This document shows positions 13,644-40,322 of a stretch of 64,000 bases of DNA, piece by piece; positions within the stretch are counted from its first letter, which is position 1; every line of letters begins with the position of its first letter. The position numbers and the translations under genes were made by a program. This DNA comes from an uncultured Shimia sp. (GTDB lineage: Bacteria; Pseudomonadota; Alphaproteobacteria; Rhodobacterales; Rhodobacteraceae). Under the pieces are notes generated by a model, which was not told the DNA's origin, ran no database searches, and was given only the letters and a program-made list of their open reading frames with translations. Location of the stretch: contig NZ_CANLRL010000001.1 of the NCBI RefSeq assembly GCF_947493595.1, positions 310,001-374,000 of the forward strand, written 5' to 3'.

Positions 13644-13805
13644 CCAACGCGAAATTGGCAATTTTGGATTTGAGTGGGGGGGCTTTGTGGATTGTGGATC
13701 GTGAAGCTGCCTCCGCCAGTTTGGGAGCCGTAAATCAAATTCCCTATCGTGAATTCAAGCATCTGGTGTAGGCTGGACCTATTACACTTGTGAAGGATGC
13801 GCCGT

Positions 13806-14225: not shown

Positions 14226-14254
14226 AAAAGCCCCCGCCACGGTTGCGGCGGGGG
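14224..14254 (-). terminator. Terminator of the leftward aldehyde dehydrogenase gene
   Basis: A perfect 8-bp G+C stem (14231-14238 with 14247-14254) followed on the minus strand by six T (14229-14224). The hairpin starts 6 bp after the globin stop and may also stop rightward transcription weakly. Confidence 0.8.
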
Positions 14255-14280
14255 AAGTTTCCTCACGGGTTAGGATAATC

Positions 14281-15804: not shown

Positions 15805-15905
15805 AATTTCCTCCTCATATGCCGATCTCCTCCGATCGGATTGCGGGGAGGATGGCGTGTACGGAGGCGCGCGTCAGGGTGGGTGCAAACGGTTGTGCAC
15901 AGGAG

Positions 15906-15925
15906 GTGTCTCAGAGGTGAGACAC
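15906..15925. promoter_or_regulatory. Perfect palindrome, probable site for the AcoR-like regulator
   Basis: GTGTCTCA-GAGG-TGAGACAC is an 8-bp perfect inverted repeat, 102 bp upstream of the aldehyde dehydrogenase ATG. TGTCTCA/TGAGACA arms are the kind bound by Fis-type helix-turn-helix regulators of alcohol and ketone genes. I see no good -24/-12 sigma-54 promoter between it and the gene. Confidence 0.55.
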
Positions 15926-15931
15926 ATGTGG

Positions 15932-16888
15932 TCACGTTTCGTTGAGGCCGAGGCGTTTCATGCGGCGATAGAGCGTGGCGCGGCCAATGCCAAGCTGGCG
16001 CGCCGCCTGGCTGATGTTGCCGTCTGCGCGGGCAATTGCGCGCACCACGGCGGCGCGTTCAGCTTTTTCAAAACCGGTCGGGCCGTCTTCGCGGCCCAAG
16101 ATGTCAGCTGCCGGGCGCGGGGACAGTTGGGCGCTGGTTTCCATGCCAAAGACGCGGCGGGCCTCGCGGGTGGCGCCCACCACCAGATCATCGCTGTCGA
16201 TGGCCAGTAGGGTGGCGGCTTCGGCGTCTTCGCTTTCAGCCACCACAATGCGCGCCGTGGGGAAAGTGGCGCGGAAGTGGGCTTCCTCAATGGCGCGGGC
16301 CGTTTGGGCAACCTGCGCGGCGATCAGGCGATTGAAGGCCTCGGTTTGATCCGCGCGGGCAGAAGACACATCCAACGCGGCGACAATGGAGCCGTCGCTT
16401 CCATAGATTGGGGCGTCGATGCAGCTCATGCCGGTGTTGCAGGCAAAGAAGTGTTCGTCGCGGTGGATGATTAGGCGACGGCCTTCGGTCAGGCAGGTGC
16501 CAATGCCATTGGTGCCTTCCTGCGCTTCGCTCCAATCCGCGCCGTTGCACAGGCCCCAGTGATCAAAGGTAGGGGCGTCCGCGTCGCTGAGACGTTGATC
16601 CAAGATCACGCCTTTGGCGTCGGACAAAAACACGCCACAGCCGGATTGGCCGACAAGGGCATAGAGCGCGTCCAGACGCGGGGCGGCGACGGTCATAAAC
16701 GTGTCCAGCGACGCTCGACGGTGTTTGAGGCAATCTTGGGTGACGCGGGCGACGTCGCGCTTTGAGGCAGGGTCCAACCCGTGTTTATGGGCGGAGCGGT
16801 GCCAGCTTGCGGCGAGGCGGGAATGTGCGGCGGCTGAGGGAGAAAAAGCAGCGTCCAGAACGCGATCAACATGGGAAATGGGGCGCAT
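15932..16888 (-). CDS. AcoR-like regulator: GAF domain plus Fis-type HTH, no AAA+ domain
   Basis: A 318-residue regulator. The N-terminal half matches the sensory part of AcoR-type activators: SRLAASWHRSAHKHGLDP, then a GAF-like region with WSEAQEGTNGIGTCLTEGRRLIIHRDEHFF and NTGMSCIDAPIYG. The C-terminus ends in a Fis-type helix-turn-helix, ERAAVVRAIARADGNISQAARQLGIGRATLYRRMKRLG. The roughly 230-residue sigma-54-interacting AAA+ module with its GAFTGA loop is absent. It should therefore act without sigma-54 ATPase activity. It probably controls the aldehyde dehydrogenase downstream. Confidence 0.82.
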   Translation of the reverse strand: MRPISHVDRVLDAAFSPSAAAHSRLAASWHRSAHKHGLDPASKRDVARVTQDCLKHRRASLDTFMTVAAPRLDALYALVGQSGCGVFLSDAKGVILDQRLSDADAPTFDHWGLCNGADWSEAQEGTNGIGTCLTEGRRLIIHRDEHFFACNTGMSCIDAPIYGSDGSIVAALDVSSARADQTEAFNRLIAAQVAQTARAIEEAHFRATFPTARIVVAESEDAEAATLLAIDSDDLVVGATREARRVFGMETSAQLSPRPAADILGREDGPTGFEKAERAAVVRAIARADGNISQAARQLGIGRATLYRRMKRLGLNET

Positions 16889-17012
16889 GAGCGTCGCTCC
16901 GAATAGGTACTAATCTGAGGGCTGGCTTTAATTGGCTGCGGGACTTGTTGGGAAGTTAGTGGAACGCGGACAAAAGGCAACTGCGACCAAAGGCGCGGGC
17001 CCACTATAAGAG

Positions 17013-17043
17013 AAGGGCGACATCCTGATGGGATGCCGCCCTT
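17013..17043 (-). terminator. Terminator of the ketoglutarate semialdehyde dehydrogenase gene
   Basis: A long hairpin (AAGGGCGaCATCC / GGATGcCGCCCTT with one mismatch) is followed on the minus strand by CTCTTAT. It lies 40 bp past the stop at 17083. Confidence 0.65.
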
Positions 17044-17082
17044 GGGGAGGTGTTCTTTGGGATAGGTCCGGCGGGCCGGATC

Positions 17083-18597
17083 TTAGGTTTGTGTGGTTGG
17101 ATCCAAGGCGGCTGGCAGGTTTTGGTAGCACACCGGGCGCAGGAAGCGCCGGATGGATAGGGTGCCGACGGAGGTGGCGCCAAAGTTGGTGGAGGCCGGA
17201 TAAGGGCCGCCGTGCACCATGGTGTCGCTGACTTCAACGCCGGTTGGGAAGCCGTTGGCCAGGATGCGGCCGGCTTTGCGTTCCAGAATGGGCAGCAGGC
17301 CTTGCGCGGCATCGGTGTCGGCGTCATCCATGTGCAAGGTGCAGGTGAGCTGCCCCTGAAGCTGCTTGGCAACGGCCCGCATCTCGTCGAGGTCTTCCGC
17401 AACCAGGATCACGCCCAGCGGGCCGAAGACTTCTTCGCCCAGCACGTCGTTGGCGAGCCAGTTCTGTGCGGTGGTTTGGTAGAGATAAGGCGTGGCGCCG
17501 CGCAAATCGCAGCTGGTTTTCAGCAGTTCCTGCACGCCGGTGGTTTCGGCCACAAGCGTTTGGCCTTTGCGGTAGGCCGCGGCGATGCCGTCGGTGAGCA
17601 TAGTTTGCTCTGGCTGATCAGTGAGTGCGGCGGTGGCTTCTTGTGCGAACGCTTCTGCGTCTGTGCCAGCCAGAACGACGGCGATGCCGGGGTTTGTGCA
17701 GAATTGGCCCGCACCCATGGTGAGGGAGCCTGCCCAGCCAGTGGCCAGATCTGCGTGATGGTTGGCCAGCGCGTTTTCAAAGATGAACATTGGGTTCACG
17801 GAGCCGAGTTCGCCAAAGAATGGGATCGGTTCAGCGCGGGCGGCGCAGAGGTCAAACAGGGCACGGCCACCGGCGAGGGAGCCGGTGAAACCCACCGCTT
17901 TGATCAGCGGGTGTTGCACCAATGCGGACCCGACAGCGCGGTTGCCGCCCTGGATCAGGCTAAAGACGCCCGGATGCATGCCGCAGGATTTGATTGCGGC
18001 GTGGATGGCTTCGGCGATGATTTCACCGGTGCCGGGATGCGCGGAGTGGCCTTTCACCACAACGGGGCAGCCAGCGGCCAATGCGGCGGCGGTGTCGCCA
18101 CCTGCGGTGGAGAATGCCAACGGGAAGTTGGAGGCACCAAACACCGCGACTGGTCCAATTGGACGCTGCATCATTTTGAGCTCAGGGCGGGGCAGGGGGG
18201 CGCGGTCCGGCAAAGCATGGTCATGGCGCAGGTCGAGGTAGTCGCCTTTGAGAATGTGCTCAGCAAACAGGCGCAGTTGGCCGGTGGTGCGGCCACGTTC
18301 GCCTTGCAGGCGGGCTTCGGGCAGGCCGGTCTCTTGCGTGCCAATCTGGGTGATCGCCTCGGCCCGCGCTTCGATTTCATCGGCGATGGTGTTCAAGAAG
18401 ACGGCGCGGTCCGCGCGGGTGGAGTAGCCAAAGCTCCAGAACGCGTCTTCGGCCGCCTGCACAGCAGCGTCGACGTTGTCGACGGTGCCAACAGAGAAGT
18501 CATGTGCCGGGCCGTGGGCAGGCTCGGAAGGGAATTTGGTGTCGCCAGACACCCAGGTGCCAGCAATGAGGTGGTTGCCGTGAGGAACAAAAGTCAT
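17083..18597 (-). CDS. Aldehyde dehydrogenase, probable alpha-ketoglutarate semialdehyde dehydrogenase
   Basis: A 504-residue NAD(P)-dependent dehydrogenase. It has the features of the ketoglutarate/2,5-dioxopentanoate semialdehyde group: GASNFPLAFSTAGGDTAAALAAG, GFTGSLAGGRALFDL, FFGELGSVNPMF and the catalytic Cys in GAGQFCTNPG. In hydroxyproline breakdown this enzyme makes 2-oxoglutarate, the last step before central metabolism. The ATG at 18597 is chosen because a perfect GGATA-TTG-TATCC operator sits just upstream; the longer frame would need a TTG inside that operator. It follows the GntR gene on the same strand. Confidence 0.82.
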   Translation of the reverse strand: MTFVPHGNHLIAGTWVSGDTKFPSEPAHGPAHDFSVGTVDNVDAAVQAAEDAFWSFGYSTRADRAVFLNTIADEIEARAEAITQIGTQETGLPEARLQGERGRTTGQLRLFAEHILKGDYLDLRHDHALPDRAPLPRPELKMMQRPIGPVAVFGASNFPLAFSTAGGDTAAALAAGCPVVVKGHSAHPGTGEIIAEAIHAAIKSCGMHPGVFSLIQGGNRAVGSALVQHPLIKAVGFTGSLAGGRALFDLCAARAEPIPFFGELGSVNPMFIFENALANHHADLATGWAGSLTMGAGQFCTNPGIAVVLAGTDAEAFAQEATAALTDQPEQTMLTDGIAAAYRKGQTLVAETTGVQELLKTSCDLRGATPYLYQTTAQNWLANDVLGEEVFGPLGVILVAEDLDEMRAVAKQLQGQLTCTLHMDDADTDAAQGLLPILERKAGRILANGFPTGVEVSDTMVHGGPYPASTNFGATSVGTLSIRRFLRPVCYQNLPAALDPTTQT

Positions 18598-18626
18598 GTG
18601 GGACTCGCTGCTTAAAAGATCAGTTG

Positions 18627-18641
18627 TGGATATTGTATCCA
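18627..18641. promoter_or_regulatory. GGATA-N3-TATCC operator before the semialdehyde dehydrogenase
   Basis: TGGATATTGTATCCA is a perfect inverted repeat with a 3-base centre, 30 bp upstream of the start codon. It is identical in its 13-bp core to the site at 29152-29164 and similar to three others in this cluster. Confidence 0.7.
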
Positions 18642-18687
18642 ATTTATGCGCGCGTGCAAGTCCATTCCACCCAATAGCGGCTGAGTC

Positions 18688-19365
18688 TTAGGTTTCGATG
18701 GCGCGTTTGGCTTCGATCAGTTCGAGCAACTCGACTTTGGTGCGTTCGATGTGAGCGGCCAGCAGTTCACAAGCGGCGTCGACATTTCGATCTCGTGCCA
18801 GCTTGAGCAGATTACGGTGCTCTTCTTTGGCCGGTTCACGTTGTTCCATAACGCTGAGGTGAAGGCGCACATAGCGGTCGGATTGAATGTTGATGCGGTC
18901 GAGAATGTCTTTGGTGAGACTACGCCCCGCAGACGCGTAAAGTGCGCCGTGGTATTCGTGGTTCAGCGTACCCCAGCGCGCAACGTCGTCTTCGTCATAC
19001 GACGTTTCCATTTGCTGTAAGATGTTCTCACACTTGTCAAAATCGGCAAGCGACATCTGTGGAATCGCGCGGCGGAAGAGGTCGGTCTCGATCAGGATTC
19101 GCAGGTCAAAGATCTCGCCAATCTCGGCTATGGAGTGTTTGGTGACCGAGCCGCCGCGATTGTTGGCCCATTGGATCAGGCCTTCGGCATTCAGGCGTTT
19201 GAGGGCCTCGCGGATCGGCATGCGGGAGACATCGTATTCTTCGGCGAGGGCTTCCTGACGGATCGGTTCACCTTCAGACATGTCGCCACTGAGGATGCGT
19301 TCGCGTAGATCGTTGGCGATCATCTCTGGCAAACTCTGTTTGGTTACCGCGCGCTTTCCAGCCAT
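18688..19365 (-). CDS. GntR family regulator (FadR/VanR type) of the hydroxyproline genes
   Basis: A 225-residue regulator. The winged helix holds LSGDMSEGEPIRQEALAEEYDVSRMPIREALKRLNAEGLI, and the C-terminal FCD-type domain has FDLRILIETDLFRRAIP and a late RYVRLHLSVM. It sits inside a catabolic cluster in which five GGATA/TATCC-type sites precede separate transcription units, including one before its own gene. It is the obvious candidate to bind them. The inducer is probably a hydroxyproline or a pathway product. Confidence 0.85.
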   Translation of the reverse strand: MAGKRAVTKQSLPEMIANDLRERILSGDMSEGEPIRQEALAEEYDVSRMPIREALKRLNAEGLIQWANNRGGSVTKHSIAEIGEIFDLRILIETDLFRRAIPQMSLADFDKCENILQQMETSYDEDDVARWGTLNHEYHGALYASAGRSLTKDILDRINIQSDRYVRLHLSVMEQREPAKEEHRNLLKLARDRNVDAACELLAAHIERTKVELLELIEAKRAIET

Positions 19366-19392
19366 CCCGTTTCTCTCATTCTAAGGTGTGTT

Positions 19393-19402
19393 TTGGATAC
19401 AA
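19393..19402. promoter_or_regulatory. GGATAC half-operator before the GntR gene
   Basis: TTGGATACAA carries one clear half of the cluster's operator, 28 bp upstream of the regulator start; the second half is degenerate. Autoregulation is inferred. Confidence 0.45.
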
Positions 19403-19481
19403 CTACCGTCTGAGCGCTGATTTTCCAACAGGATTTGCGGTCGGTCCGTGGTTTTACGGCTTGAGATCGAAGTTGAGTCTA

Positions 19482-19497
19482 TTGTATCCAATATCCA
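19482..19497. promoter_or_regulatory. GGATA-type operator before the reductase gene
   Basis: TTGTATCCAATATCCA lies 26 bp before the start at 19523. It has two TATCC elements in the same orientation rather than a perfect palindrome, but clearly belongs with the other sites of the cluster. Confidence 0.55.
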
Positions 19498-19522
19498 TGT
19501 GGTGAGTTTGGGAGATCTTGGA

Positions 19523-20539
19523 ATGACGGAAATGGTTCAATTGCCGCTGGATGAGGTGCGGGCGCTTTCGGTGCAAACTCTGTCAGACGTGGGCTACGGC
19601 CCGCGCCATGCCGCAGCGATTGCCGAGATGCTGTATCAGTGTCAGCGTGATGATTGTCAGTCCCATGGTCTGTTTCGCCTACTTATGTGTCATCAGACCA
19701 TGAAGGCCGGAAAGATCGACGGACATGCCTTGCCGCGAATTGTTCCAACGGACAGCGCCATTGTGCGGGTGGATGCGCGGGATGCGATGTCCATTCTGGC
19801 GGTGAACGAGGCAATGCCGCTGTTGATCGAAAAGGCCCGCAAGTTTGGTATGGCGGCCATGGCGGTGAACAACTGTTTTCATTTTTCCGCCCTTTGGCCG
19901 GAAGTGGAGCGGTTATCCGAAGCGGGGCTGGCTGGTCTGTCGATGGTGCCGAGCCACTCCTGGGTTGCCCCTGCGGGAGGCAAACGTGGAACATTGGGGA
20001 CCAATCCATTGGCGTTTTCCTGGCCGCGCAAGAACAAAGACCCGTTCACATTTGATTTTGCCACCAGTGGTTTTGCGCGGGGAGAGATCGAGCTGTACTT
20101 GCGCGCCGGTAAGCCGTTGCCAGAAGGTGTGGCGGTGGATGCAGATGGCAATCCGACCACCGATCCGCAGGTGGCGTTGGACGGCGCGATGCTGACCTTT
20201 GGCGGCTACAAAGGGTCTGCGTTGTCGATCATGATTGAATTGATGGCTGGGCCACTGATTGATGATTTGACCAGTTCGGAAAGCATGGCCTTTGCCGAGG
20301 GGCAGGGTGGCGCGCCCTATCATGGCCAGATCATTCTGGCGTTTGACCCGTATCGTCTGAGTGGTGGGCGCGTGGCGGACAATGATGCGCGGGCGGAGCG
20401 GCTGTTTGCGGATATTCTGGAGCAGGGTGCAAGGTTGCCATCCCAACGGCGGTTTGAGGCACGGGCGCGCAATTGTGAGCGCGGATATGTTGAGGTGCCA
20501 AAGGCGCTTCTGGAGGATCTGAAGAGGTTGGGCGGCTAA
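19523..20539 (+). CDS. Ldh2/MDH2-type reductase, probable delta1-pyrroline-2-carboxylate reductase
   Basis: A 338-residue NAD(P)H enzyme of the malate/L-lactate dehydrogenase (LDH2) family. Typical segments are RDDCQSHGLFRLL, VNNCFHFSALWPEVERLSEAG, GTNPLAFSWP and FGGYKGSALSIMIELMAG. In hydroxyproline gene clusters this family reduces pyrroline-2-carboxylate, the product of 3-hydroxyproline dehydratases, to L-proline. The ATG at 19523 has a GGGAGA ribosome site; the longer frame from 19448 would read through the operator at 19482-19497. Confidence 0.78.
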   Translation: MTEMVQLPLDEVRALSVQTLSDVGYGPRHAAAIAEMLYQCQRDDCQSHGLFRLLMCHQTMKAGKIDGHALPRIVPTDSAIVRVDARDAMSILAVNEAMPLLIEKARKFGMAAMAVNNCFHFSALWPEVERLSEAGLAGLSMVPSHSWVAPAGGKRGTLGTNPLAFSWPRKNKDPFTFDFATSGFARGEIELYLRAGKPLPEGVAVDADGNPTTDPQVALDGAMLTFGGYKGSALSIMIELMAGPLIDDLTSSESMAFAEGQGGAPYHGQIILAFDPYRLSGGRVADNDARAERLFADILEQGARLPSQRRFEARARNCERGYVEVPKALLEDLKRLGG

Positions 20540-20556
20540 GGGCCACCCAGCCTGTT

Positions 20557-21582
20557 TTAGGCGCCCCAGGTGTCGCTGAGGCGGTAGCCTGCGGGCCAAG
20601 GATCGTCCGGGTCCAGCATGTGCTGGTGAATGCCAGTTACCCAGCCACGACCGGAGATTTCCGGCACGATTGCAAGTCGGTCGCCAACGGTTGTACTTTC
20701 TACGATGCGGCCGGAGAAGCGCGAGCCAATGATGGATACCGCTTCAAATGTCTCATTGGGTTTCATCAGGCCTTTCGCGGCCATAAGCGCCATGCGGGCG
20801 GAGACAGCTGTGCCAGTGGGGGAACGGTCTACTTTGCCGGGCTGAATCGCGACGGCGGACTTGCCGGTGAGGCCGGTCTCTGTGCGGGAGAGCGGGCCGC
20901 AAAAAGCGCAGAAAGAGATGTGGTCCCAGTCCGGGTTTTCCGGATGCGTGAAACCAAGTTGGTCGTTTGCAGCGTTAGTAATGGCCACACCCAGCCGCGC
21001 GATGTCCTTTGCCTCGTGCTCAACAATCTCAAAGCCAAGCGCCTGCGCGTCGACAACCACAAAGCTGTCGCCGCCATAGGCGGTGTCCACCGTGATTGTG
21101 CCATATCCCGGCACCTCAAGTGGCACGCCAATCTTGTCGGCAAAGCTGGGCAGGTTTTGCACAAAGATACGCTGCGCCTTGCCGTCTTTGCATTCGGCGC
21201 GAACTTTGACCAAACCGCCGGGGGCCTCCAGCGTCATATGGGTTTCCGGTTCCTGCATCGGGATGATGCCGCCATCCAGAAGCACAGTGGAGACGCAGAT
21301 CGAGTTGGAGCCGGACATGGGCGGTGTGTCTTCGGGCTCCATGATGATCCAGGCGGCGTCGGCCTCTGGGTGCTTGGGCGGCACAAGCAGGTTCACGTGG
21401 CGGAAGACGCCGCCACGTGGTTCGTTTAGGACGAAATTCCGCAGGGTTTGATCCTCGGCGATGAAGCTGCGTTGCTCCCAGATGGTGTCGCCCGGTGGCG
21501 GGGTCACACCGCCGACAATCACGTCGCCCACTTCGCCTTCGGCATGGGCGGAGATGACATGTATGGTTTTGTTGCTGCGCAT
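20557..21582 (-). CDS. Proline racemase superfamily member with Ser/Thr at the two catalytic positions; probable 3-hydroxyproline dehydratase
   Basis: A 341-residue protein with the two-domain proline racemase pattern. Racemases and 4-hydroxyproline epimerases have a catalytic Cys in MCGHGTIG and in DRSPCGTG. Here the first site reads [12 protein letters not shown] (Ser90) and the second reads [10 protein letters not shown] (Thr256). Thr at the second site is the hallmark of trans-3-hydroxy-L-proline dehydratases, which normally keep Cys at the first, so the Ser is unusual. It is the last gene of the nine-gene operon and convergent with the pyrroline-2-carboxylate reductase that would use its product. 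Confidence 0.75.
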
Positions 21583-31794: not shown

Positions 31795-32658
31795 TTAGCC
31801 CAGCGCGATGCCAAGATCCTCGAAATGATCTTGGACATCAGCGATGCTGACTCCCTCAAAGGTGATCGAGTCATTTGAGCCGATGTTAAGAACTGCGTTG
31901 CCATTAACTTCGGTCACCAAGTCCAAGCCAAATGTCGCCGCAAAAGCCAGATTGTTCGCCAGCCAGGTTTGCGAGTCCTGACCGCCAATGATCAGGTCAT
32001 CAATACCCAGCTCGAAGTCGGTAATGACGACGTCGGAACTCTTCTTGTGGGTCTGATAGACAAATTCGAATGTATCGGCACCGTGCCCGCCGGTCAGAAT
32101 ATGGTCGCCGCCTTTTTTGAGGCGCGCCACGATGAGGTCGTCGCCAATACCGCCATCGGCAGTTGACGTGTGATCACCGGTGTTGACCGTATCATTTCCA
32201 GTACCACCGGACAGAGTGTTGAAGCCTTTTGTTCCAAAAATGAAGTCGTCGCCGGATCCGCCATTAATTGTGTCGTTGCCGTGATCGCCAGCGAGGTAGT
32301 CATTGCCCCCGGCGCCATTCAGGAGATCGTTGCCTTCTCCGCCAAAGACATCGTCGTTGCCATTGCCGGCGTTGACGATGTCGTTGCCGGAGCCCCCCAA
32401 AATGTAGTCTTCGCCGCGGCCGCCAAAAATGACGTCATTTCCGCTGCCACCATTGATTGTATCATTGCCACGATCACCGCTGAGTGTGTCGTTGCCCGCA
32501 TCACCGGCGATCTCCGCGGGTGTGAATCCTGTTACAGTGATGACGTCGTCGCCATCGTTGCCAGAGATTTGAAAGCCTGTGTAGGCGCCTGGGTAAGTGA
32601 ATTCATTGACCAAAAGGGTGTCAGCCAAATGGGTTCCATCAATGATCAAAGTTGGCAT
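31795..32658 (-). CDS. RTX calcium-binding protein
   Basis: A 287-residue protein. Residues about 30-175 are a row of glycine- and aspartate-rich nonapeptide repeats (GGSGNDVIFGGRGEDYILGG and similar), the calcium-binding beta-roll of RTX proteins. There is no N-terminal signal. The C-terminal part (VITDFELGIDDLIIGG, ending LGIALG) looks like the uncleaved signal of type I secretion substrates. No enzymatic domain is visible, so an adhesin- or surface-layer-like role is possible. It stands alone, with no secretion genes in the window. Confidence 0.85.
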   Translation of the reverse strand: MPTLIIDGTHLADTLLVNEFTYPGAYTGFQISGNDGDDVITVTGFTPAEIAGDAGNDTLSGDRGNDTINGGSGNDVIFGGRGEDYILGGSGNDIVNAGNGNDDVFGGEGNDLLNGAGGNDYLAGDHGNDTINGGSGDDFIFGTKGFNTLSGGTGNDTVNTGDHTSTADGGIGDDLIVARLKKGGDHILTGGHGADTFEFVYQTHKKSSDVVITDFELGIDDLIIGGQDSQTWLANNLAFAATFGLDLVTEVNGNAVLNIGSNDSITFEGVSIADVQDHFEDLGIALG

Positions 32659-32881: not shown

Positions 32882-32898
32882 TGGCTGGGGTGGTAGGA
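32882..32898 (+). repeat. attL core (copy of tRNA-Gln 3' end)
   Basis: TGGCTGGGGTGGTAGGA, identical and in direct orientation to the last 17 bases of the tRNA-Gln gene at 40248-40264. It marks the left end of the integrated element. Confidence 0.9.
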
Positions 32899-33206
32899 AC
32901 CCTTGCGTCTCGATGAAACGCATCGGCTTTCCCGAACCAACTCAAAAACTGGGGCACTTATTGGGGCACTTTTGCCTGTCCGCGTCCCGATCTCTTGGCC
33001 CGTCCTGAAACCACGGGGGCGGCAAGCATTCAGCGACGGACATCGCCAATAACTCCATCTCATGTAGCTGACCATCCGCCTCAGCAATCTCTCTCAGCAG
33101 CGCCACCGCTCGCTCACGGACTAGCAGTCCTTGCTCTGTCTGAACCGTCTGAGGCCCTCGGTAAGCTCCTGGAGGGTCAGTTGGTCGAGGCGGTCTAGGA
33201 AGAGAG
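32882..33206 (+). repeat. Inverted repeat A, left copy (325 bp)
   Basis: Matches the reverse complement of 37711-38035 with one difference in 325 bp (33026 versus 37891). It contains the att core at its outer end and two GGGGCACTT boxes 12 bp apart (32951-32959, 32963-32971) that look like integrase arm sites. Confidence 0.95.
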
Positions 33207-33369
33207 TGAGGGCAGCATCAACGAACACGGGATCGTACCCCCAGTTCTCAATGAAGTAACCGCGAATAACGTCTAGCTCCTCTTCAGAGACCTCACCATC
33301 CGCAGCGGCAACCTTCAGGCTGAGCGGGGCGATGAGATCGAGTTGTGGCGTTAGATTTCCGAGCCACAA
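32942..33369 (-). pseudogene. TerB-like gene, frameshifted
   Basis: On the minus strand a first segment (33369-33121) reads LSLKVAAADGEVSEEELDVI, a TerB-type acidic motif, and ends at a stop after FRQSKDC. The neighbouring frame continues with VRERAVALLREIAEADGQLHEMELLAMSVAE, a second TerB-type segment, ending at 32942. A single frameshift near 33125 would join them. There is no good start codon at the 5' end. The C-terminal part lies inside repeat A, so it is duplicated at 37711-37975. Confidence 0.55.
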
Positions 33370-33478
33370 AATATTGATTCACAACAGCTATGATGCTACA
33401 TAACTTTTAGGCAATCCCGCCGTCCGGGGCCATCGTGCCCCGTAACATAGGTCCATCGTGACCAGTGGAGAACTTTAC

Positions 33479-34702
33479 ATGAGCATCAAGCCATACCGGT
33501 TTGAGGTGTCTGAAGCGCGCAGCGTTAAGCACCCAACACTACCTAACATCCTCAAGCACACTTTTCTCGTTCCAGCCCACCTTTTCCCAAAGGGTGTTCC
33601 GAGCGGTGCCAACCTGCGCGACCCAGTCGGAATGAACCGCCAAGTGTACAAAGACGTTAAAGCGAGCCTTGAGGGGAAGGAAGCACTTCCTGGAACTTTT
33701 GACCTTCTTAATCTCGGTATCACCATTATTGCAGAAGACGTGAAGGTTATCGATAAGCGCGTTTTCGACGTAATGATTGACGATGAGTATGGGATCGCAA
33801 ATGGCTCTCATACAACGCAGATCATTTATGATTGCCAGGATGACGACTCGATCGCTGAAGGACAGCATGTCGAAGTAAAGATAATCACTGGGCTTGAAGG
33901 TGGTGATAACCATTCTCTACGGGTGGATATTGCTCGAGGTCAAAATACTGGCATCTCCGTACAGCCTCGTTCCATTTTCGAGTTGGACGGAGCTTTCAAT
34001 AGCATCAAAGCCATCGTGGTGGATGAGGATTGGGCTGATGACATTGGCTACAAAGAATCGGACAAAAAGGACATTGACGTTCGGGAACTCGTAGCGGTTC
34101 TGGAGTTGCTGAATGTAGTTGATTTCCCAATCCGCGACACAAAGCACCCAATTCCAGCTTATGAAAAGTGGTCGACTCCCTTGAACAAGTTCGGTGACGA
34201 CTACAAACTCAACCGCGCAACACCGGACAATCGAAAATATGCCATTTTTGAGCCTCTTCTTCTCGAAGCGTTAGAGCTCTACGATCACATTCGTCGGGAC
34301 TTTTTACGTGTTTACAATGAAACTGTCGGTGGGCGTGCAGGTAACTTGCGGATAGTTGAGAAGGCTCCTGCAAGCAAAGGGCGCTTTAAGTTTCCATATG
34401 CCAAGCTGGACGAGCACGAACAGCGCCTCACCAAAGGTGCCGCATATCCAATCTTGGGGGCGTTTCGGAACTTCGTAAAAATTAACGAAGAAACTGGGAT
34501 GGCAGAATGGCAAGGTGGCTTTGAGAATGTTCTGAACTCTTGGCGTGACTTGGCCCCTGAACTAGTTGCGGAAACCAAGCAAGCCATAAAAGACATCGGC
34601 AATGCCCCTGACTCTCTTGGTAAAAACCGAAATCACTGGGCCAACTTGTTTAAGACTGTCCGGCTGCATGTGATGGAGCAGCAACTGGATGCGATGGGTT
34701 GA
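33479..34702 (+). CDS. AIPR-like protein (abortive infection phage resistance family)
   Basis: A 407-residue protein. Two segments resemble the AIPR family: FDLLNLGITIIAEDVKV (about 74-90, compare the NNGI segment) and IANGSHTTQIIYD (about 106-118, compare the NGxQTT segment). AIPR proteins were named from a plasmid-borne phage abortive infection gene of Lactococcus. Here it is the first cargo gene after the left end and has an AGTGGAG ribosome site before ATG 33479. A defence role is an inference from family and location; no nuclease motif was recognised. Confidence 0.6.
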   Translation: MSIKPYRFEVSEARSVKHPTLPNILKHTFLVPAHLFPKGVPSGANLRDPVGMNRQVYKDVKASLEGKEALPGTFDLLNLGITIIAEDVKVIDKRVFDVMIDDEYGIANGSHTTQIIYDCQDDDSIAEGQHVEVKIITGLEGGDNHSLRVDIARGQNTGISVQPRSIFELDGAFNSIKAIVVDEDWADDIGYKESDKKDIDVRELVAVLELLNVVDFPIRDTKHPIPAYEKWSTPLNKFGDDYKLNRATPDNRKYAIFEPLLLEALELYDHIRRDFLRVYNETVGGRAGNLRIVEKAPASKGRFKFPYAKLDEHEQRLTKGAAYPILGAFRNFVKINEETGMAEWQGGFENVLNSWRDLAPELVAETKQAIKDIGNAPDSLGKNRNHWANLFKTVRLHVMEQQLDAMG

Positions 34703-34715
34703 GGGGAGTGTGGTC

Positions 34716-34850
34716 ATGAAAAGCCAAGAAAACAAGGTCCTAATCAAAATCGGCAAACATTTCGAGGCAAACGCTAGCGGTAACTTTGCGGTGTTTGTTG
34801 TGTGCTTTGCGATCGTAGTTCTCCTAGTTACAGGAGTGCTATTAGAGTGA
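34716..34850 (+). CDS. Small single-pass membrane protein
   Basis: A 44-residue ORF 13 bp after the AIPR-like gene, with GAGGGGAG 8 bases before the ATG. The N-terminal half is charged (MKSQENKVLIKIGKHFEANA), and the C-terminal half is one hydrophobic helix (FAVFVVCFAIVVLLVTGVLL). It may act with the AIPR-like protein as a membrane partner, but nothing beyond the spacing shows this. Confidence 0.5.
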   Translation: MKSQENKVLIKIGKHFEANASGNFAVFVVCFAIVVLLVTGVLLE

Positions 34851-35009
34851 TTGTCGTTGGCGATCGGCGGCTGTTTCAATATTCCACTTGAATCGCAACT
34901 TTGGCATGATGACAACTCGCTCGAAATGATCTGCTTGCAGAGGCCGCCTCAGGTCCAAAAAAGAGCACCCTTGCGTATCTAAAATAGAAACAACGTAAGG
35001 AGATACATC

Positions 35010-35183
35010 ATGAAATCGTTTTGTACCCTCGGCGATGCCGCCGGGGGTTTTCTTATGAGCGCACCACCGCGTTCAGTGTTGACCGCGATCCTCTGGCTTG
35101 GGGCTCGCACACATCCCGCCGTGTCGATGATGTTGATACTGGTCTTCCTAGCCGCCTGGATAAAGGGCGCAAGTGATGGCTGA
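35010..35183 (+). CDS. Small ORF in the element, possible membrane peptide
   Basis: 57 residues with a strong TAAGGAG ribosome site 7 bases before the ATG. It has a hydrophobic segment near the C-terminus (VSMMLILVFLAAW). It overlaps the next small ORF by 8 bp. No family was recognised. Confidence 0.45.
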   Translation: MKSFCTLGDAAGGFLMSAPPRSVLTAILWLGARTHPAVSMMLILVFLAAWIKGASDG

Positions 35184-35370
35184 GCTCACGCTCCAACCCG
35201 ACGACATCGTAGTAATTCGCGCAAGCGACGATTGGCCCGAACATCTGTTTCGGGTCGATTTCGTTTTTGACGACTGTGTGGGTGGCTACTCGATCACTGG
35301 ACCTTTGGCGGGGGAGTACGGCGAGCCGGAGTTCGACCTCATTCTCAGGGTCCACCATCGCGGTGGCTAA
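35176..35370 (+). CDS. Small acidic ORF before the integrase
   Basis: 64 residues, overlapping the previous ORF and ending 34 bp before the integrase start. It is acidic (DDWPEHLFRVDFVFDDCVGGY). A GTG at 35173 is an alternative start. It could be a small DNA-contact or excision factor, but no motif supports a function. Confidence 0.4.
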   Translation: MAELTLQPDDIVVIRASDDWPEHLFRVDFVFDDCVGGYSITGPLAGEYGEPEFDLILRVHHRGG

Positions 35371-35404
35371 CCGCTCTTTCCCAAAACAGAAAAGGAGGAG
35401 ACAC

Positions 35405-36721
35405 ATGTCTGCTCATATCAAGTATGCGTACTTGAAGGGTCACACATGGCTCTATCGACGCAACTGGCCCAAGGACGTGGCGATGGTCCTTGGTCAGCAA
35501 GCCCTAAAGCAACCGCTGAAGACCAACTCAACTAACACCGCTCGCACAAGAGCCGCTGAGGTCAATCTTCGTTACGAGAGGACAGTCTCTGAGGTGCGGG
35601 ATCGCTCTGAGGAGGCTCTCTCTGTGCCTGAGCGCAACGCTACCTCTCTCGATTGGGAAGCAGCATCGGGAACTGCTCTCGACCACCTACGGGCCACTCT
35701 GGAGCTCTCTGGGCAACTGGGTGAACGGTCGCGGTTCGAACGTCGGACACCGCGAGAGAAGATCTCAATTCAGGATAGGGGTACTGTCTACTTATCTCGA
35801 AGGTCCAACGAGCTACGGCCCGGTGGGTTTAAATCGGTTCGCTACTCTGTTGGGTTGTTTCTCTCGAAGTATGGCGATCGGTCCCTGTGCAGCCTGACCA
35901 GAGCTGAGGGGCGCGAGTTCCTTGGTTTGGTGGCTCAACTCTCTCCGGTCATTGGTAAGTCGGAGAGAACCAGAGGGCTATCGCTGGATCAGTTGGTGAC
36001 CTTCTCCGCTCAAGGAACGGCTCGAATCACTACGCGAACTCAGAAGCGGATTTGGGCTCAGGTCAACGCCTTCATCGATTGGACAGTCTACGAAGGTCAT
36101 CTTGAGCAGAACCCGTTCAAGACGGTCTTGTTCGATCAGAAGATCAAGCCACAGCCTTATGCCGTTCCAACGGACGGGGAAGTGGTTCAACTTCTATCCA
36201 CCAAGGATGATGTCTTACGTCCGGTGATGCTGACCTGTCTTTTGACGGGAATGCGTGCTGGAGAGGCGATTGGTTTGCTCCGAGGGGATCTAGTCTCAAA
36301 GGGAAACCTCGGCGGCTTCATCCATGTGCGACCCAATGACCTTCGGTTGCTCAAAACCGATGCGGCTGAACGGCAGGTCCCGATGCATCCGGTGCTGGAG
36401 GAGGTGTTTCGCTCACTGCCAAGCGAAGGACCTCTGTTCCCTGAGACCAATGTCGAGCAGGTAACCAAACGGTTCGCCCGTTTACGGCAAGCCAAGAAGT
36501 TGGATCGGCCTCGTCTGGTGTTTCACTCGACGCGCAAGTGGTTCATCACCCAATGCGAACGCACCGGTGTGCCAGAACACTTCACGGCAAGCATCGTTGG
36601 CCATAAGTCTGCCCGGTCCGAAAACGGGATCACCTACGGCATCTACAGCGCCGGTATCTCGGATGAGCAAAAACGGGGTATCGTGGATCAGATACGTCTT
36701 CCCAAGGGCGTATCACCATGA
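35405..36721 (+). CDS. int: Tyrosine recombinase/integrase of the element
   Basis: 438 residues. The N-terminus (YLKGHTWLYRRNWPKDVAMVLG, then LKTNSTNTARTRAAEV) is the DUF6538-like arm-binding region common in alphaproteobacterial integrases. The catalytic residues are Arg284 in TGMRAGE, Lys317, His374 and Arg377 in HSTRKW, His400 in VGHKSA, and the nucleophile Tyr411 or Tyr414 in ITYGIYS. ATG 35405 has a full AAAGGAGGAG ribosome site. It should catalyse integration into tRNA-Gln, excision, and possibly inversion between the inverted cores. It lies in the middle of the element rather than beside an end. Confidence 0.9.
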   Translation: MSAHIKYAYLKGHTWLYRRNWPKDVAMVLGQQALKQPLKTNSTNTARTRAAEVNLRYERTVSEVRDRSEEALSVPERNATSLDWEAASGTALDHLRATLELSGQLGERSRFERRTPREKISIQDRGTVYLSRRSNELRPGGFKSVRYSVGLFLSKYGDRSLCSLTRAEGREFLGLVAQLSPVIGKSERTRGLSLDQLVTFSAQGTARITTRTQKRIWAQVNAFIDWTVYEGHLEQNPFKTVLFDQKIKPQPYAVPTDGEVVQLLSTKDDVLRPVMLTCLLTGMRAGEAIGLLRGDLVSKGNLGGFIHVRPNDLRLLKTDAAERQVPMHPVLEEVFRSLPSEGPLFPETNVEQVTKRFARLRQAKKLDRPRLVFHSTRKWFITQCERTGVPEHFTASIVGHKSARSENGITYGIYSAGISDEQKRGIVDQIRLPKGVSP

Positions 36722-36891
36722 TCGTTCCAGACATCGACGCATTCGAAGAGAGGGCCGCTATCGCTGAACACGATGGCGGTCTTTCTCGTTTGGAGACGGA
36801 GAACTTTGCAGCACGAGTTCAGGGCTTTGATAGCGCTGAGGCTTACTGGCAGTGGCTCGCAGACTACGTAGTGACCCGAAAGGTGCCCTAA
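36718..36891 (+). CDS. Small ORF coupled to the integrase
   Basis: 57 residues, starting in an ATGA overlap with the integrase stop. It is acidic and helical (AFEERAAIAEHDGGLSRLETE, then EAYWQWLADYVVTRKVP). The coupling suggests co-expression; a directionality factor is possible but not shown by any motif. A terminator follows. Confidence 0.5.
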   Translation: MIVPDIDAFEERAAIAEHDGGLSRLETENFAARVQGFDSAEAYWQWLADYVVTRKVP

Positions 36892-36895
36892 ACTT

Positions 36896-36940
36896 ACCCC
36901 GGCTGGCTTCGTGCTGGCCGGGGTTCACTTCTCTTTTTTT
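36896..36940 (+). terminator. Terminator after the integrase operon
   Basis: CCCCGGC and GCCGGGG arms around a 13-base loop are followed after about 10 bp by a run of T (36934-36940). Confidence 0.7.
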
Positions 36941-37021
36941 CTTGCCGCTTCAAAACTACGCGGGTGAAGGCCTCAATCTGTGGCTATAGTGGGATCACTG
37001 AATTTAACCTTAGGATTTCCC

Positions 37022-37696
37022 ATGCTCAAACGAAGCATTCTCTCTATGTCATTGCTTTTATCCACACAATCGATTGCCTACGCATCTAATGTCGAGGCTC
37101 TGTTGTGTCATTTTGGAGAACAAGAGATTGGGCTTATTTTCGCGACCGGCTCTGATCAAAAGAAAGGGTTTATCAATGAATTCCCTGTGGAAGTCATGTA
37201 CTTGAATGACGGTGTTACCCTTGTCGATGCTAATGCACAAACCATGGTACTCATCAAAGAGATGCGCGATCGAATACTTGCTGAAGGTTTATTTCGAGGT
37301 CGCGTTGTCAATGGTGGCTGCCTCGACTTTGGCGAACAACTGCTTGCAACTACGGAACTTTTATTGCCTGCAATCGTAGACGAGTTAACTAACCAATCGG
37401 GTCAGCTTAAATTGAAATTGGAAGAGAAAAAGGCAGTCATTAATGGACTAACTGCAGCGGTAGACGAGGCTTCAACAGAGCTAGAACTGGCCAAAGCTAG
37501 AGTTGATGAACTGGAGGGGCTATCCGCTGCAGTAATACTCGCCAACGAAGAGGCAAATAGACAATGCGGCGAGAAAGAAAACACGCTAACTGCGCAAGTC
37601 GAAGCTCTGTCAGCTGAGAACTCCAGACTTGAGAGAAGTCGCAACACACTTCGAGGATGGGTTGCCGAACTGGAAAAGAAGAGTGAGTGCAACTGA
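37022..37696 (+). CDS. Exported coiled-coil protein of unknown function
   Basis: 224 residues. MLKRSILSMSLLLSTQSIAYA is a signal peptide, with ATG 37022 chosen for this reason. The next 100 residues contain two cysteines (ALLCHFGEQ and VNGGCLDFGEQ) that may pair. From about residue 120 to the end there is a long coiled coil (LKLKLEEKKAVINGL, ELELAKARVDELEG, QVEALSAENSRLER). It stops 14 bp before repeat A'. A spanin-like or envelope-spanning role is conceivable; no family was recognised. Confidence 0.55.
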   Translation: MLKRSILSMSLLLSTQSIAYASNVEALLCHFGEQEIGLIFATGSDQKKGFINEFPVEVMYLNDGVTLVDANAQTMVLIKEMRDRILAEGLFRGRVVNGGCLDFGEQLLATTELLLPAIVDELTNQSGQLKLKLEEKKAVINGLTAAVDEASTELELAKARVDELEGLSAAVILANEEANRQCGEKENTLTAQVEALSAENSRLERSRNTLRGWVAELEKKSECN

Positions 37697-37945
37697 AAAA
37701 GCCGCCCTGTCTCTCTTCCTAGACCGCCTCGACCAACTGACCCTCCAGGAGCTTACCGAGGGCCTCAGACGGTTCAGACAGAGCAAGGACTGCTAGTCCG
37801 TGAGCGAGCGGTGGCGCTGCTGAGAGAGATTGCTGAGGCGGATGGTCAGCTACATGAGATGGAGTTATTGGCGATGTCCGTCGCTGAATGTTTGCCGCCC
37901 CCGTGGTTTCAGGACGGGCCAAGAGATCGGGACGCGGACAGGCAA

Positions 37946-37966
37946 AAGTGCCCCAATAAGTGCCCC
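37946..37966 (+). repeat. Putative integrase arm sites, A' side
   Basis: Two AAGTGCCCC boxes starting at 37946 and 37958, 12 bp apart and about 53 bp from the core at 38019. The mirror pair is at 32951-32971. Confidence 0.55.
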
Positions 37967-38018
37967 AGTTTTTGAGTTGGTTCGGGAAAGCCGATGCGTT
38001 TCATCGAGACGCAAGGGT

Positions 38019-38035
38019 TCCTACCACCCCAGCCA
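38019..38035 (-). repeat. Internal inverted att core
   Basis: A third copy of the 17-bp tRNA-Gln 3' end, opposite in orientation to those at 32882 and 40248, and flanked by arm boxes on both sides as expected of a complete attP. It is not a tRNA gene. Confidence 0.9.
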
Positions 38036-38085
38036 ACAATCCGAACATCAGTGTTTATTAATCTTCCAGGCCCTCTAGGCATCAA

Positions 38086-38106
38086 AAATGCCCCTAAAAG
38101 TGCCCC
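38086..38106 (+). repeat. Putative integrase arm sites, B side
   Basis: AAATGCCCC at 38086 and AAGTGCCCC at 38098, again 12 bp apart, starting about 50 bp from the core. The mirror pair is at 40177-40197. Same orientation as the A' boxes, as in lambda-type attP arms. Confidence 0.55.
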
Positions 38107-38215
38107 TGCTTTAGGCTCTGTCTGAGTATAGTCAGCAAGGCCAACGATAGAGATAAGTAATGATGGCGCAGGATAGAGATGCGGAGAAGCCCGGAAGCTC
38201 CCCCGCCTTGCATAA

Positions 38216-39739
38216 TCATCCTCCCAAACCCAAAGAACGAAGATAAGAAACTCTCTCTCCGAACAGCCTCTGACGGATACGATACTCAGAGCAGCGGTCC
38301 CGATGACGGAACTCGATATAGTCTGCTACCAGCTCCGGACTATCCCGCTCCATCTCATCCAGACCCTGATAGTTGTTGGAGAGAGCTACTTGCCTCCCAA
38401 CCTCGAACAGGCAGGCGCCCCGCATGACCGTCTTCAGCATGTTGGCGTGGCGGTAGTTGATGAGGAAGCTGTCATGAACACACAGAACTGGGATTTGCCT
38501 CTTCGTTAGGTAGTTGATGACACGAGACGCAATCCGACTGTCGATGTTCATCAAGCGAATACCCTGATCCGAGCAAAGACCATCCGCCAAGAAAGGATGT
38601 TTCTCCGAGAACGCATCAAGCACCCGAAGCAACTCCTTGTTGGTCATTGACTTCTCCTCCGAACCCACAGGCGCATCTTGACGAAACGCCTTGCAGGCTG
38701 TGCCTCGGTCACGGGCATTTAGAGCCATAAGAACAAGAGACTTCACCAGCTTTCGCTGGCTCGGCGCATCAAGCCCTGTAACCAAACCCTCAGGAAGCTC
38801 ATATGGGTCTCCAGAAAGATCAACTCCTTTCTCTGCCGCCAAGATCGCCACGTGAAGAGCCTGATAGTCCACCTCAACAGTTGGCTCATCGTCTAAGTGA
38901 ATCCGCTTCCTGAATTCGGAGCCAACACTCTGCCACCATCCGCCATAGAACCGACCGCCAGACCTCCAGTCAGAACGATTGAAGATGCGCCGGACATGGT
39001 GATCCCAGCCGCAGATCGGAACTCGATTCAGTTCACCTTGGCGCGGACCAGACTTGATTGGTCGCTGAATGAACGTCTCAACCTGATCCGGAACATCGAT
39101 GAAAGTCCGAGCGAGCAGTTCGTTGTAGGCCTTCAGATCTGCCCGGATGGCTTTGGTAAAATCTGTGTCTTGGTATTCAGCCTCTTTTTTGCGTTCATCA
39201 TGCAGCACAACACTCTCTTTGCTCGGAAACACAAAAATGTGCTCCCGACCAAATTTGGCTTTCCGAAATAGCTTACGAAGAGGCTCCGCTGCGATGATCC
39301 GTGCGGTTCGGTTGGTCTTCGCTCCTGAACCTGCGAAACTTCCCTTTGAAAGCTCTATATAGCCTTGTTTCGCCAGCCTATGAACCAATCTCGGGATTAT
39401 CCTCGAAAGGCCAATCGCGTTGTACCTAGAGTTAGTGTTCCAAGCTGTGTTGGACAGATGAACCCCTATCGAAAGCTTAGGGTCCGTTTTCCAAGCAACA
39501 TAGAGATCAAGGATCAGAACTCTCAATTGACCGCGATAGTTAGTCTTCGGACGAGCTCCCCCTCGTGGTTTGCTGCATGGCGAGAGATCCAAGCAACTTT
39601 TCTGCCAAATATGCTCCACCGTTTTCCCAATCTCTGAATGCTCCGAATACACGTGAACATCGAGTGGTCGCGAATACGAAGGGTCGAGCCCCATTGTGAT
39701 AGGCTTGGTGCTTCTGTTTCTTGATCCGTTTCTTTCCAT
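38216..39739 (-). CDS. Stand-alone protein with single-subunit polymerase palm motifs; putative replication protein
   Basis: 507 residues; a family member of unknown function. Residues about 110-150 look like a winged helix (SRIIPRLVHRLAKQGYIELSKG). After a GGRFYGGWWQ block (261-270) come three motifs in the order and spacing of family A polymerases and T7-type RNA polymerases. Motif A is VEVDYQALH (Asp291), motif B is RKLVK-like (Arg329, Lys333), and motif C is CVHDSFLI (His422, Asp423). No exonuclease domain is present. The ATG at 39739 has an AGGA site. Its last 16 codons lie in repeat B. It may replicate the excised element, but this is inferred. Confidence 0.55.
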   Translation of the reverse strand: MERNGSRNRSTKPITMGLDPSYSRPLDVHVYSEHSEIGKTVEHIWQKSCLDLSPCSKPRGGARPKTNYRGQLRVLILDLYVAWKTDPKLSIGVHLSNTAWNTNSRYNAIGLSRIIPRLVHRLAKQGYIELSKGSFAGSGAKTNRTARIIAAEPLRKLFRKAKFGREHIFVFPSKESVVLHDERKKEAEYQDTDFTKAIRADLKAYNELLARTFIDVPDQVETFIQRPIKSGPRQGELNRVPICGWDHHVRRIFNRSDWRSGGRFYGGWWQSVGSEFRKRIHLDDEPTVEVDYQALHVAILAAEKGVDLSGDPYELPEGLVTGLDAPSQRKLVKSLVLMALNARDRGTACKAFRQDAPVGSEEKSMTNKELLRVLDAFSEKHPFLADGLCSDQGIRLMNIDSRIASRVINYLTKRQIPVLCVHDSFLINYRHANMLKTVMRGACLFEVGRQVALSNNYQGLDEMERDSPELVADYIEFRHRDRCSEYRIRQRLFGERVSYLRSLGLGG

Positions 39740-40019
39740 AGATCATTTCCTGACCTTTCAAGTGTTTCAAATGAAAGCATCAGGGAAGACCTCCCCCCCT
39801 GACGCAGAGCGAAAGGTGGGAATAAAAAAAAACGCCTCAGCGAAGACGCTAAGACGTACGTACTCTGTTCGTTATGTGTGCTAAGTCCAGCCTCTCCCAC
39901 CTCAGGCAAATAGTCGATACTAAATCAACAGGTGGTAATGGGCATGGGTACTCCTTTGGTTGCCTCAAAATCACCTAAGAGCGGCTCAGCCTAACTACAA
40001 GTGTTTTCTTCAAAAAAAA
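39740..40019 (-). other. Upstream region of the polymerase-like gene
   Basis: No gene is supported. It holds the promoter side of the polymerase-like gene and a small imperfect hairpin near 39830-39855. Together with repeat B' it is the most likely place for a replication origin, but no iterons were recognised. Confidence 0.3.
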
Positions 40020-40264
40020 TTCGGAGAGAGAGTTTCTTATCTTCGTTCTTTGGGTTTGGGAGGATGATTATGCAAGGCGGGGGAGCTTCCGGGCTTCTCC
40101 GCATCTCTATCCTGCGCCATCATTACTTATCTCTATCGTTGGCCTTGCTGACTATACTCAGACAGAGCCTAAAGCAGGGGCACTTTTAGGGGCATTTTTG
40201 ATGCCTAGAGGGCCTGGAAGATTAATAAACACTGATGTTCGGATTGTTGGCTGGGGTGGTAGGA
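40020..40264 (-). repeat. Inverted repeat B', right copy (245 bp), with attR core
   Basis: Perfect reverse complement of 38019-38263. Its last 17 bases (40248-40264) are the attR core and the true 3' end of tRNA-Gln. Arm boxes lie at 40177-40197. Confidence 0.95.
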
Positions 40265-40322
40265 TTCGAACCTACGATGCGCTGTACCAAAAACAGGTGC
40301 CTTACCACTTGGCTACACCCCA
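40248..40322 (-). tRNA. tRNA-Gln (anticodon TTG)
   Basis: 75 nt with an encoded CCA. The acceptor stem TGGGGTG pairs with CACCCCA, the T arm is GTAGG-TTCGAAT-CCTAC, and the anticodon loop TTTTGGT gives anticodon TTG. The outermost anticodon-stem pair is a C-C mismatch (27-43). The gene is the integration target of the element on its 3' side and stays intact because the element supplies the same 17 bases. Confidence 0.93.

Follow-up and report, generated by a model that had tools for sequence, protein, structure and literature searches.

The window analysed here, a stretch of 64,000 nucleotides from an uncultured Shimia sp. (contig NZ_CANLRL010000001.1, positions 310,001 to 374,000), carries an integrative element of 7,366 bp, measured from core to core, at the 3' end of a tRNA-Gln(TTG) gene. 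A tyrosine integrase gene and direct core repeats at the 3' end of the tRNA gene mark it as a tRNA-inserted integrative element. Excision would not leave it with a single phage-type attachment site (attP), however; the resulting circle would hold two complete sites in inverted orientation, one arm between them carrying the integrase gene and the other a gene for a polymerase-like protein. To judge from the sequences of its relatives, this layout is a conserved plan and not the oddity of a single strain. A preliminary description of the stretch had likened it to the yeast 2-micron plasmid. It is a serious possibility, although one that falls somewhat short of being probable, that these elements form a class in which two inverted, complete attPs allow isomerisation and in which inversion is coupled to double rolling circle amplification, as in the 2-micron plasmid.

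Two inverted attachment sites in one element

There are exactly three copies of the 17-bp core in the window, in the order direct, inverted, direct. On the tRNA side it lies at 40248..40264 (minus strand), within the tRNA gene called by ARAGORN at 40248..40322 (minus strand), a host gene into whose 3' end the element is integrated. The inner, inverted copy is found at 38019..38035 (plus strand) and the distal copy at 32882..32898 (minus strand). Each end of the element possesses one arm, reading tRNA/core/A on the tRNA side and B/core/chromosome at the distal end, and the inner site possesses both (B/core/A) and is a complete attP. The two A arms (40020..40247, minus strand, and 38036..38263, plus strand) form together with their cores a perfect inverted repeat of 245 bp (40020-40264 and 38019-38263). 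The two B arms (32899..33206, minus strand, and 37711..38018, plus strand) likewise form with their cores an inverted repeat of 325 bp (32882-33206 and 37711-38035) with one mismatch, at 33026. When the outer halves are joined and compared with the inverted inner site, 553 bp can be aligned, again with one mismatch. The repeats are separated by 4,504 bp (the integrase arm) and 1,756 bp (the polymerase-like arm). These positions, repeats and lengths had been given in the preliminary description and were reproduced exactly on recomputation. Chance cannot account for repeats of such length and identity. The host genome (4.28 Mb in 23 contigs) contains a single copy of the element, the other four matches being its own internal repeats. 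Extrapolated from the integrated form, each circle would carry two inverted copies of the recombinase target.

Both sites possess not only the core but also two pairs of boxes of the form GCCCC-n-GCCCC, which are likely to be arm-type integrase sites. In the B arm the pair begins 69 bp before the core (37950..37966, plus strand, in the inner copy; 32951..32967, minus strand, in the distal copy) and in the A arm 54 bp after it (38090..38106, plus strand, in the inner copy; 40177..40193, minus strand, on the tRNA side). Among the relatives described below, which are designated by locus (L) and genome (G) numbers, the pairs start at -69/-70 on the B side and at +52 to +55, in some cases +64/+65, on the A side, counted in the sense of the tRNA. 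Exceptions on the A side are L078, with boxes at +33, and L061, L062 and L138-L140, which are off the pattern. The spacing is kept in both attachment sites of an element even where the copies have drifted apart. Thus the two A arms are 88% identical in L064, 86% in L065 and 92% in L067, and the two B arms of L067 are only about 62% alike by gapped alignment, and each copy has kept its boxes. Because diverged arm copies each retain the boxes, the sequences point to selection on two sites and not to a recent duplication.

A further element of the A arms is a 16-bp motif, ATAGGKATAAGTAATG, two copies of which face each other from the two ends of the polymerase-like arm, at variable distance from the core and with at most one mismatch, in 17 elements (that of the window, L055, L056, L057, L059, L060, L061, L063, L064, L065, L067, L070, L072, L073, L159 and the two elements of G415). 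In the window it lies at 38147..38162 (plus strand, one mismatch) in the inner A arm and at 40121..40136 (minus strand) in the arm on the tRNA side, both copies pointing into the polymerase-like arm. It is single in L041 and L043 and present as two direct copies in L062; among L076-L134 it was otherwise matched only in L100 and L113, once each and with two mismatches. The motif is a candidate origin or promoter.

The plan at other tRNA genes and the genes on its arms

The preliminary description had proposed a search of other genomes for tRNA-inserted elements with an inverted second attP. In a family-wide sample of 394 genomes, relatives of the polymerase-like protein were encoded by 53 (the host of the window included), and the close relatives lay at tRNA-Gln(TTG), flanked by inverted repeats. 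In all, 12 contiguous elements had cores in the order direct, inverted, direct: six single ones at tRNA-Gln (that of the window, L060, L061, L064, L067 and L070), two in genome G415, and L101 element 2, L295, L303 and L313. In G415 (L169/L170, contig G415:C13) two complete elements stand in tandem at tRNA-Gln, with cores in the orientations - + - + -. Their integrase genes are 98.6% alike, and their polymerase-like proteins are only distantly alike, with identities of 72% and 42% to that of the window. L062 also has tandem elements at one tRNA gene.

Other loci at tRNA-Gln were less complete. L059, L065, L073 and L055/L116 had the tRNA core and the inverted inner core, with no distal core detected in the sequence examined. 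L043 has lost the inner core together with the integrase arm, and no inner core was seen in L041, L066, L072, L078 and L103, in some of them because the contig ends. L062 and L138 are exceptions with direct cores only. A boxes at +53/+54 or +64/+65 were present at 12 of the 21 tRNA-Gln sites examined in the host genus, so this site is heavily used there; a search of the genus for empty sites with the distal flank of the window element gave none. L257 (G410:C75), from the same genus, is an element at tRNA-Gln that lacks the polymerase-like gene and has a related integrase and two direct cores only; it is possibly a cousin with one attP. On Paracoccus plasmids (L138-L140) the tRNA-Gln locus of P. 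versutus DSM 17099 holds a rearranged element, two further records have shorter remnants, and these sequences show how such islands decay.

The layout is not confined to tRNA-Gln or to one integrase. L101 element 2 (13613-21282), which is unrelated to the polymerase element adjoining it, has direct, inverted and direct cores, repeats of 262 bp around its integrase arm and repeats of 438 bp around an arm that encodes Prim-Pol and D5_N proteins. Its integrase, used as a query, had matches in 155 of the 394 genomes. Of the 21 best matches 20 loci were fetched, and in 16 of these second-class loci the integrase lay between inverted repeats; a tRNA gene with its 3' end inside the outer repeat was called in 14 of the 16. 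L295 (tRNA-Thr) and L303 (tRNA-Ser) are fully resolved in the one-contig genome G045. The other arm of L295 encodes a protein of 1,091 amino acids; among its relatives on plasmids are proteins that bear the names primase/polymerase, TraC primase and DEAD/DEAH helicase. On the closed megaplasmid of Ruegeria sp. TM1040 an element of 12.8 kb (L313, 11923-24692) shows the same plan at tRNA-Phe, with 85-bp repeats around the integrase and with a type I restriction-modification system enclosed by perfect inverted repeats of 1,148 bp, each of which holds one of two identical BRO genes. In L092 (tRNA-Arg), L096 (tRNA-Gly) and L106 (tRNA-Leu) a polymerase-like gene is present and it is the integrase, not the polymerase, that adjoins the tRNA gene. 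The arm opposite the integrase exists in three unrelated replication-type versions: the polymerase-like protein of the window, the Prim-Pol and D5_N proteins of L101 and the 1,091-amino acid protein of L295.

Among 124 distinct tRNA genes in fetched loci of at least 5 kb, 20 genes of seven tRNA types were followed, at a distance of at most 15 kb downstream, by their final 17 bases in inverted orientation, a proportion that is not a population frequency since the loci had been fetched as relatives. A direct copy only was found downstream in 25, and any copy within 15 kb upstream, which is a fair control, in 2. The likeness to the 2-micron layout drawn in the preliminary description thus extends to seven tRNA types, with other integrases and unrelated replication-type proteins. 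The domain DUF6538 was considered as a mark of the integrases with inverted attachment sites. It was above the cut-off in all those scanned (the window, L060, L064, L070, L092, L096, L101, L295, L303 and L313) and also in the direct-only controls L077, L118, L120, L122, L124 and L126, below the cut-off in L100, L127 and L134, and absent from the controls L046, L053, L108, L111 and L123; it was rejected as a mark.

In the element of the window the integrase (438 amino acids, DUF6538 and Phage_integrase; 35405..36721, plus strand), its own tyrosine recombinase, shares its arm with three other genes. A TerB-like open reading frame (33121..33369, minus strand; PF05099, 6.5e-6) overlaps the distal B arm, and only its last part is repeated in the inner B copy. 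It is followed by a protein of the AIPR family (33458..34702, plus strand; PF10592, 8e-17) that resembles AbiU (PADLOC, 1.4e-9) and is probably phage-defence cargo, and on the far side of the integrase lies a coiled-coil protein of unknown function (37022..37696, plus strand). Among the relatives scanned, cargo was present in both arms. No relaxase was found among the named genes of the window element or among 20 cargo proteins from seven related elements, small open reading frames not being scanned, and the 20 cargo proteins included no HUH protein either. An open reading frame that adjoins the element at its distal end (31795-32658, minus strand) encodes a Gly/Asp-rich repeat protein which, as read from the frame itself, resembles RTX calcium-binding proteins.

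The second arm encodes a single protein of 507 amino acids (38216..39739, minus strand; phrog_4756, unknown function), the last 16 codons of which lie inside the inner A repeat. In an alignment of 50 relatives (L061, L065 and L101, which have stop codons, were left out) the motif RFYGGWWQ and residues D291, R329, K333 and H422-D423-S424 were invariant. We take these motifs to represent a polymerase palm, presumably between those of family A DNA polymerases and single-subunit RNA polymerases, and it is in this sense that the protein may be called polymerase-like. The Pfam family RNA_pol (PF00940) was matched by 5 of the 50 relatives with a best E value of 0.011. No relative was detected by sequence in the PDB, the best match (E value 0.55) being to an unrelated protein, and PolB was absent from the Pfam results for the window protein and from the 25 families listed for the 50 relatives. 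Distant relatives of phrog_4756 occur in 164 phage records (Rheinheimera, Vibrio, Aeromonas and others), and those listed are annotated as hypothetical. Viral contigs contained 3 and 50 distant relatives, none of which was a copy of the element (identity at most 34-36%).

Arm inversion, proposed amplification and alternative explanations

It had been suggested in the preliminary description that the element may invert its arms, and an inversion of whole arms is indeed visible between related elements, although not within one culture. The element of Ruegeria arenilitoris (L064) and the element of G415 on the tRNA side (L170) have the polymerase-like gene in the same orientation and an integrase arm of four genes reversed as a block, with identities of 72% for the integrase, 39% for AraC, 78% for DUF1254 and 85% for DUF1214. 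Similarly, L064 and Ruegeria denitrificans L057 are alike in polymerase-like protein (91.8%) and integrase (91.9%), their polymerase-like arms being colinear and their integrase arms inverted. From these comparisons arm inversion between relatives is well supported. At tRNA-Gln the orientation of the polymerase-like gene is even, 10 against 10 (n=20; L055, which has the gene in two pieces, was left out and truncated second copies in L062, L070 and L138 were not counted). L043 and L073 have a colinear chromosomal flank (80%) and a reversed polymerase-like arm (96%). Their joints fit one form of the circle that entered by different attPs, and to judge from this pair both sites are usable; with this explanation their use as proof of inversion was withdrawn. 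L130/L159 from Shimia marina, which has a complete attP at both ends of the integrase arm, was likewise withdrawn as proof of a free circle, since a tandem array would give the same contig.

The cycle that we propose would begin with excision, after which the two inverted attPs would divide the circle into integrase arm and polymerase-like arm. Either attP could serve for integration into the 3' end of tRNA-Gln, and the other would stay whole inside the integrated copy. Recombination of attP with attP, either at the core by the integrase, which would presumably be the inverting enzyme, or by homologous recombination in the long arms, would turn one arm against the other. If this happened after a replication fork had passed one of the sites, the forks would chase each other in double rolling circle replication. 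One start of replication would then yield many copies, raising the copy number of the circle, and the same process would keep the repeats identical.

Several observations weigh against such a cycle. Neither a free circle nor a raised copy number was seen in the assemblies, and in a single draft genome for which contig coverages were given the contig with attachment site and polymerase-like gene (L058, 181x) exceeded that on the tRNA side (L103, 145x) only about 1.25 times. Recombination between one attachment site and another is unusual for phage-type integrases. The integrase is co-directional with the tRNA gene, reading away from it, in 17 of 17 second-class loci (24 were looked at, 7 of them without a tRNA call), and it lies with its 3' end first in 10 of 12 elements of the tRNA-Gln class. 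Free and neutral inversion would be expected to give both orientations; the bias could have arisen through selection acting on the element once integrated, through a preference for one of the two sites or through an intermediate that is strand-specific. The outer end of L057 lacks a tRNA gene and is followed by a phage-like region, so that its inversion may accompany another rearrangement and the pair L057/L064 alone is not clean evidence. The TM1040 element possesses no recognised replication protein, its 636-amino acid protein having no Pfam family above the cut-off, and the third core was not found in L092, L096 and L106. Finally, the same polymerase family occurs with direct cores only at 19 loci, compared with 12 distinct loci that have an inverted core (L110 was left out of this tally). 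The preliminary description had named relatives in sister strains with one attP and no inverted copy as what would refute it. Elements with direct cores only exist, L257 and those of more distant relatives of the polymerase-like gene among them, but conventional one-attP elements with this protein family are found mostly among its distant relatives and the elements closest to that of the window keep the inverted copy.

A second attP might also be maintained as a joint between modules without any amplification. It would aid the exchange of arms or the build-up of tandem elements at one tRNA gene, gene conversion would keep the repeats alike and inversion would be a by-product. The tandem elements of G415, L101 and L062 and the cargo found in both arms are in line with this, and in G415 nearly identical integrases beside dissimilar polymerase-like proteins imply that arms have been exchanged. 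This leaves unexplained that three unrelated groups each keep a replication-type protein apart from the integrase arm and that the polymerase-like arm has the 16-bp motif at each end, and we regard a mere joint as rather unlikely. The most interesting rival, because it predicts the one-sided orientation of the integrase in both classes, is a folded single-strand attP of the kind known from CTXphi. Here the inverted attPs would pair into one duplex attP of 553 bp, a single-stranded form would integrate, and for a fixed strand the choice of copy would be constant. This is improbable in view of a relaxase or HUH protein missing from the 20 scanned cargo proteins, the even orientation of the polymerase-like gene, repeats far longer than needed, and duplex sites that each look complete already, unlike those of CTXphi.

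The alternative to amplification in the preliminary description had been inversion as an expression switch; it could act on the integrase gene or on the polymerase-like gene. The invertible segments do adjoin a tRNA promoter, and the second-class integrase always lies directly behind the tRNA gene. The switch is disfavoured because the inverted arms are symmetric, with promoter-like and box sequences at both ends, so that in either orientation an arm has identical sequences of 200-1,150 bp next to both its ends, and because the integrase is nearly always in one orientation when a self-inverting integrase should be met in both states; we consider it very unlikely. The chance of an assembly artefact or a one-off duplication is negligible. 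Many relatives are on short contigs or at contig ends, but the same plan in the closed TM1040 replicon rules out an artefact, and it was rejected for the whole class on this ground and on that of the one-contig genome G045. The boxes conserved despite diverged arms also contradict it, and 7 of the 16 second-class contigs end no more than 200 bp past the inner core, as expected of long repeats in short-read assemblies.

If inversion-coupled amplification is the function of the paired sites, this would explain how a small island equipped with a single replication protein might multiply ahead of its transfer. Copy-number gain through recombinase-driven inversion is known as a textbook case from the 2-micron plasmid, and the same plan in bacterial islands would make the strategy testable in easily grown marine bacteria. 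More tentatively, and as a suggestion we think could well be wrong, the elements may represent a widespread, undescribed bacterial counterpart of that plasmid, in which inverted attPs split integrase and replication halves and drive inversion-coupled double rolling circle amplification, a plan that would have arisen independently of the plasmid with at least two groups of integrases and three replication proteins. It would have been overlooked because the repeats break short-read assemblies, whose contigs end there and make such islands hard to see. The defence cargo (AbiU-like here, type I restriction-modification in TM1040) makes the islands relevant to how phage resistance spreads in environmental bacteria.

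Comparison with known systems

P4-type islands and satellites and tycheposons are not known to have more than one attP, and pipolins are integrative elements with tRNA-type ends and a polymerase of their own. The pipolin enzyme is a B-family polymerase, unlike the window protein with its lack of a PolB match in Pfam. With the tyrosine-integrase islands and satellites at tRNA genes (P4-type elements, and tycheposons as far as the accessible text of PMC10872708 covers them) our element shares the integrase, the target at the tRNA 3' end, direct cores at the ends, a replication-type protein and defence cargo; it differs in the second complete attP, inverted and inside. The strand-biased circularising elements and Tn554-like elements resemble it in tyrosine recombinases and an unusual circularisation. 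The former are characterised, in those parts of PMC10214605 that were available, by four conserved genes, two of them recombinases, and imperfect inverted repeats of 13-19 bp, and an inverted inner attachment site does not form part of that description.

CTXphi comes closer, since its attP1 and attP2 are two inverted attP sites in one circular genome. According to the available portion of PMC4246890, they are used by the host XerC/XerD at dif, lie 90 bp apart and are incomplete as duplex. Here the sites are kilobases apart and complete, each having the core and both box pairs. In a full-text search of the literature, with most subscription papers outside its reach and hence no proof of absence, CTXphi was the only natural element with two inverted attPs; the matches for 'inverted attP' were mostly Drosophila tools.

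The closest parallel is the yeast 2-micron plasmid, which, following the accessible sections of PMC3147054, has two inverted repeats of 599 bp with Flp targets, exists as two isomers and undergoes double rolling circle replication; this starts when recombination follows the passage of a fork through one target, and such replication in turn drives recombination of the repeats. The plasmid and the predicted circle of our element are alike in being split by inverted repeats, of 599 and 553 bp respectively, that bear targets of their own tyrosine recombinase, in occurring as two isomers, here between related elements, and in having other maintenance genes on the arms. Unlike the plasmid, the element described here is inserted at a tRNA gene and the recombinase targets are attPs of phage type, with arm boxes; amplification is in its case a proposal. 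It is chromosomal, at tRNA-Gln in a bacterium, and not a non-integrating nuclear plasmid of yeast, and no relation by descent is claimed. We regard it as a variant of the tRNA-inserted integrative element which would work like the 2-micron family without being a member of it.

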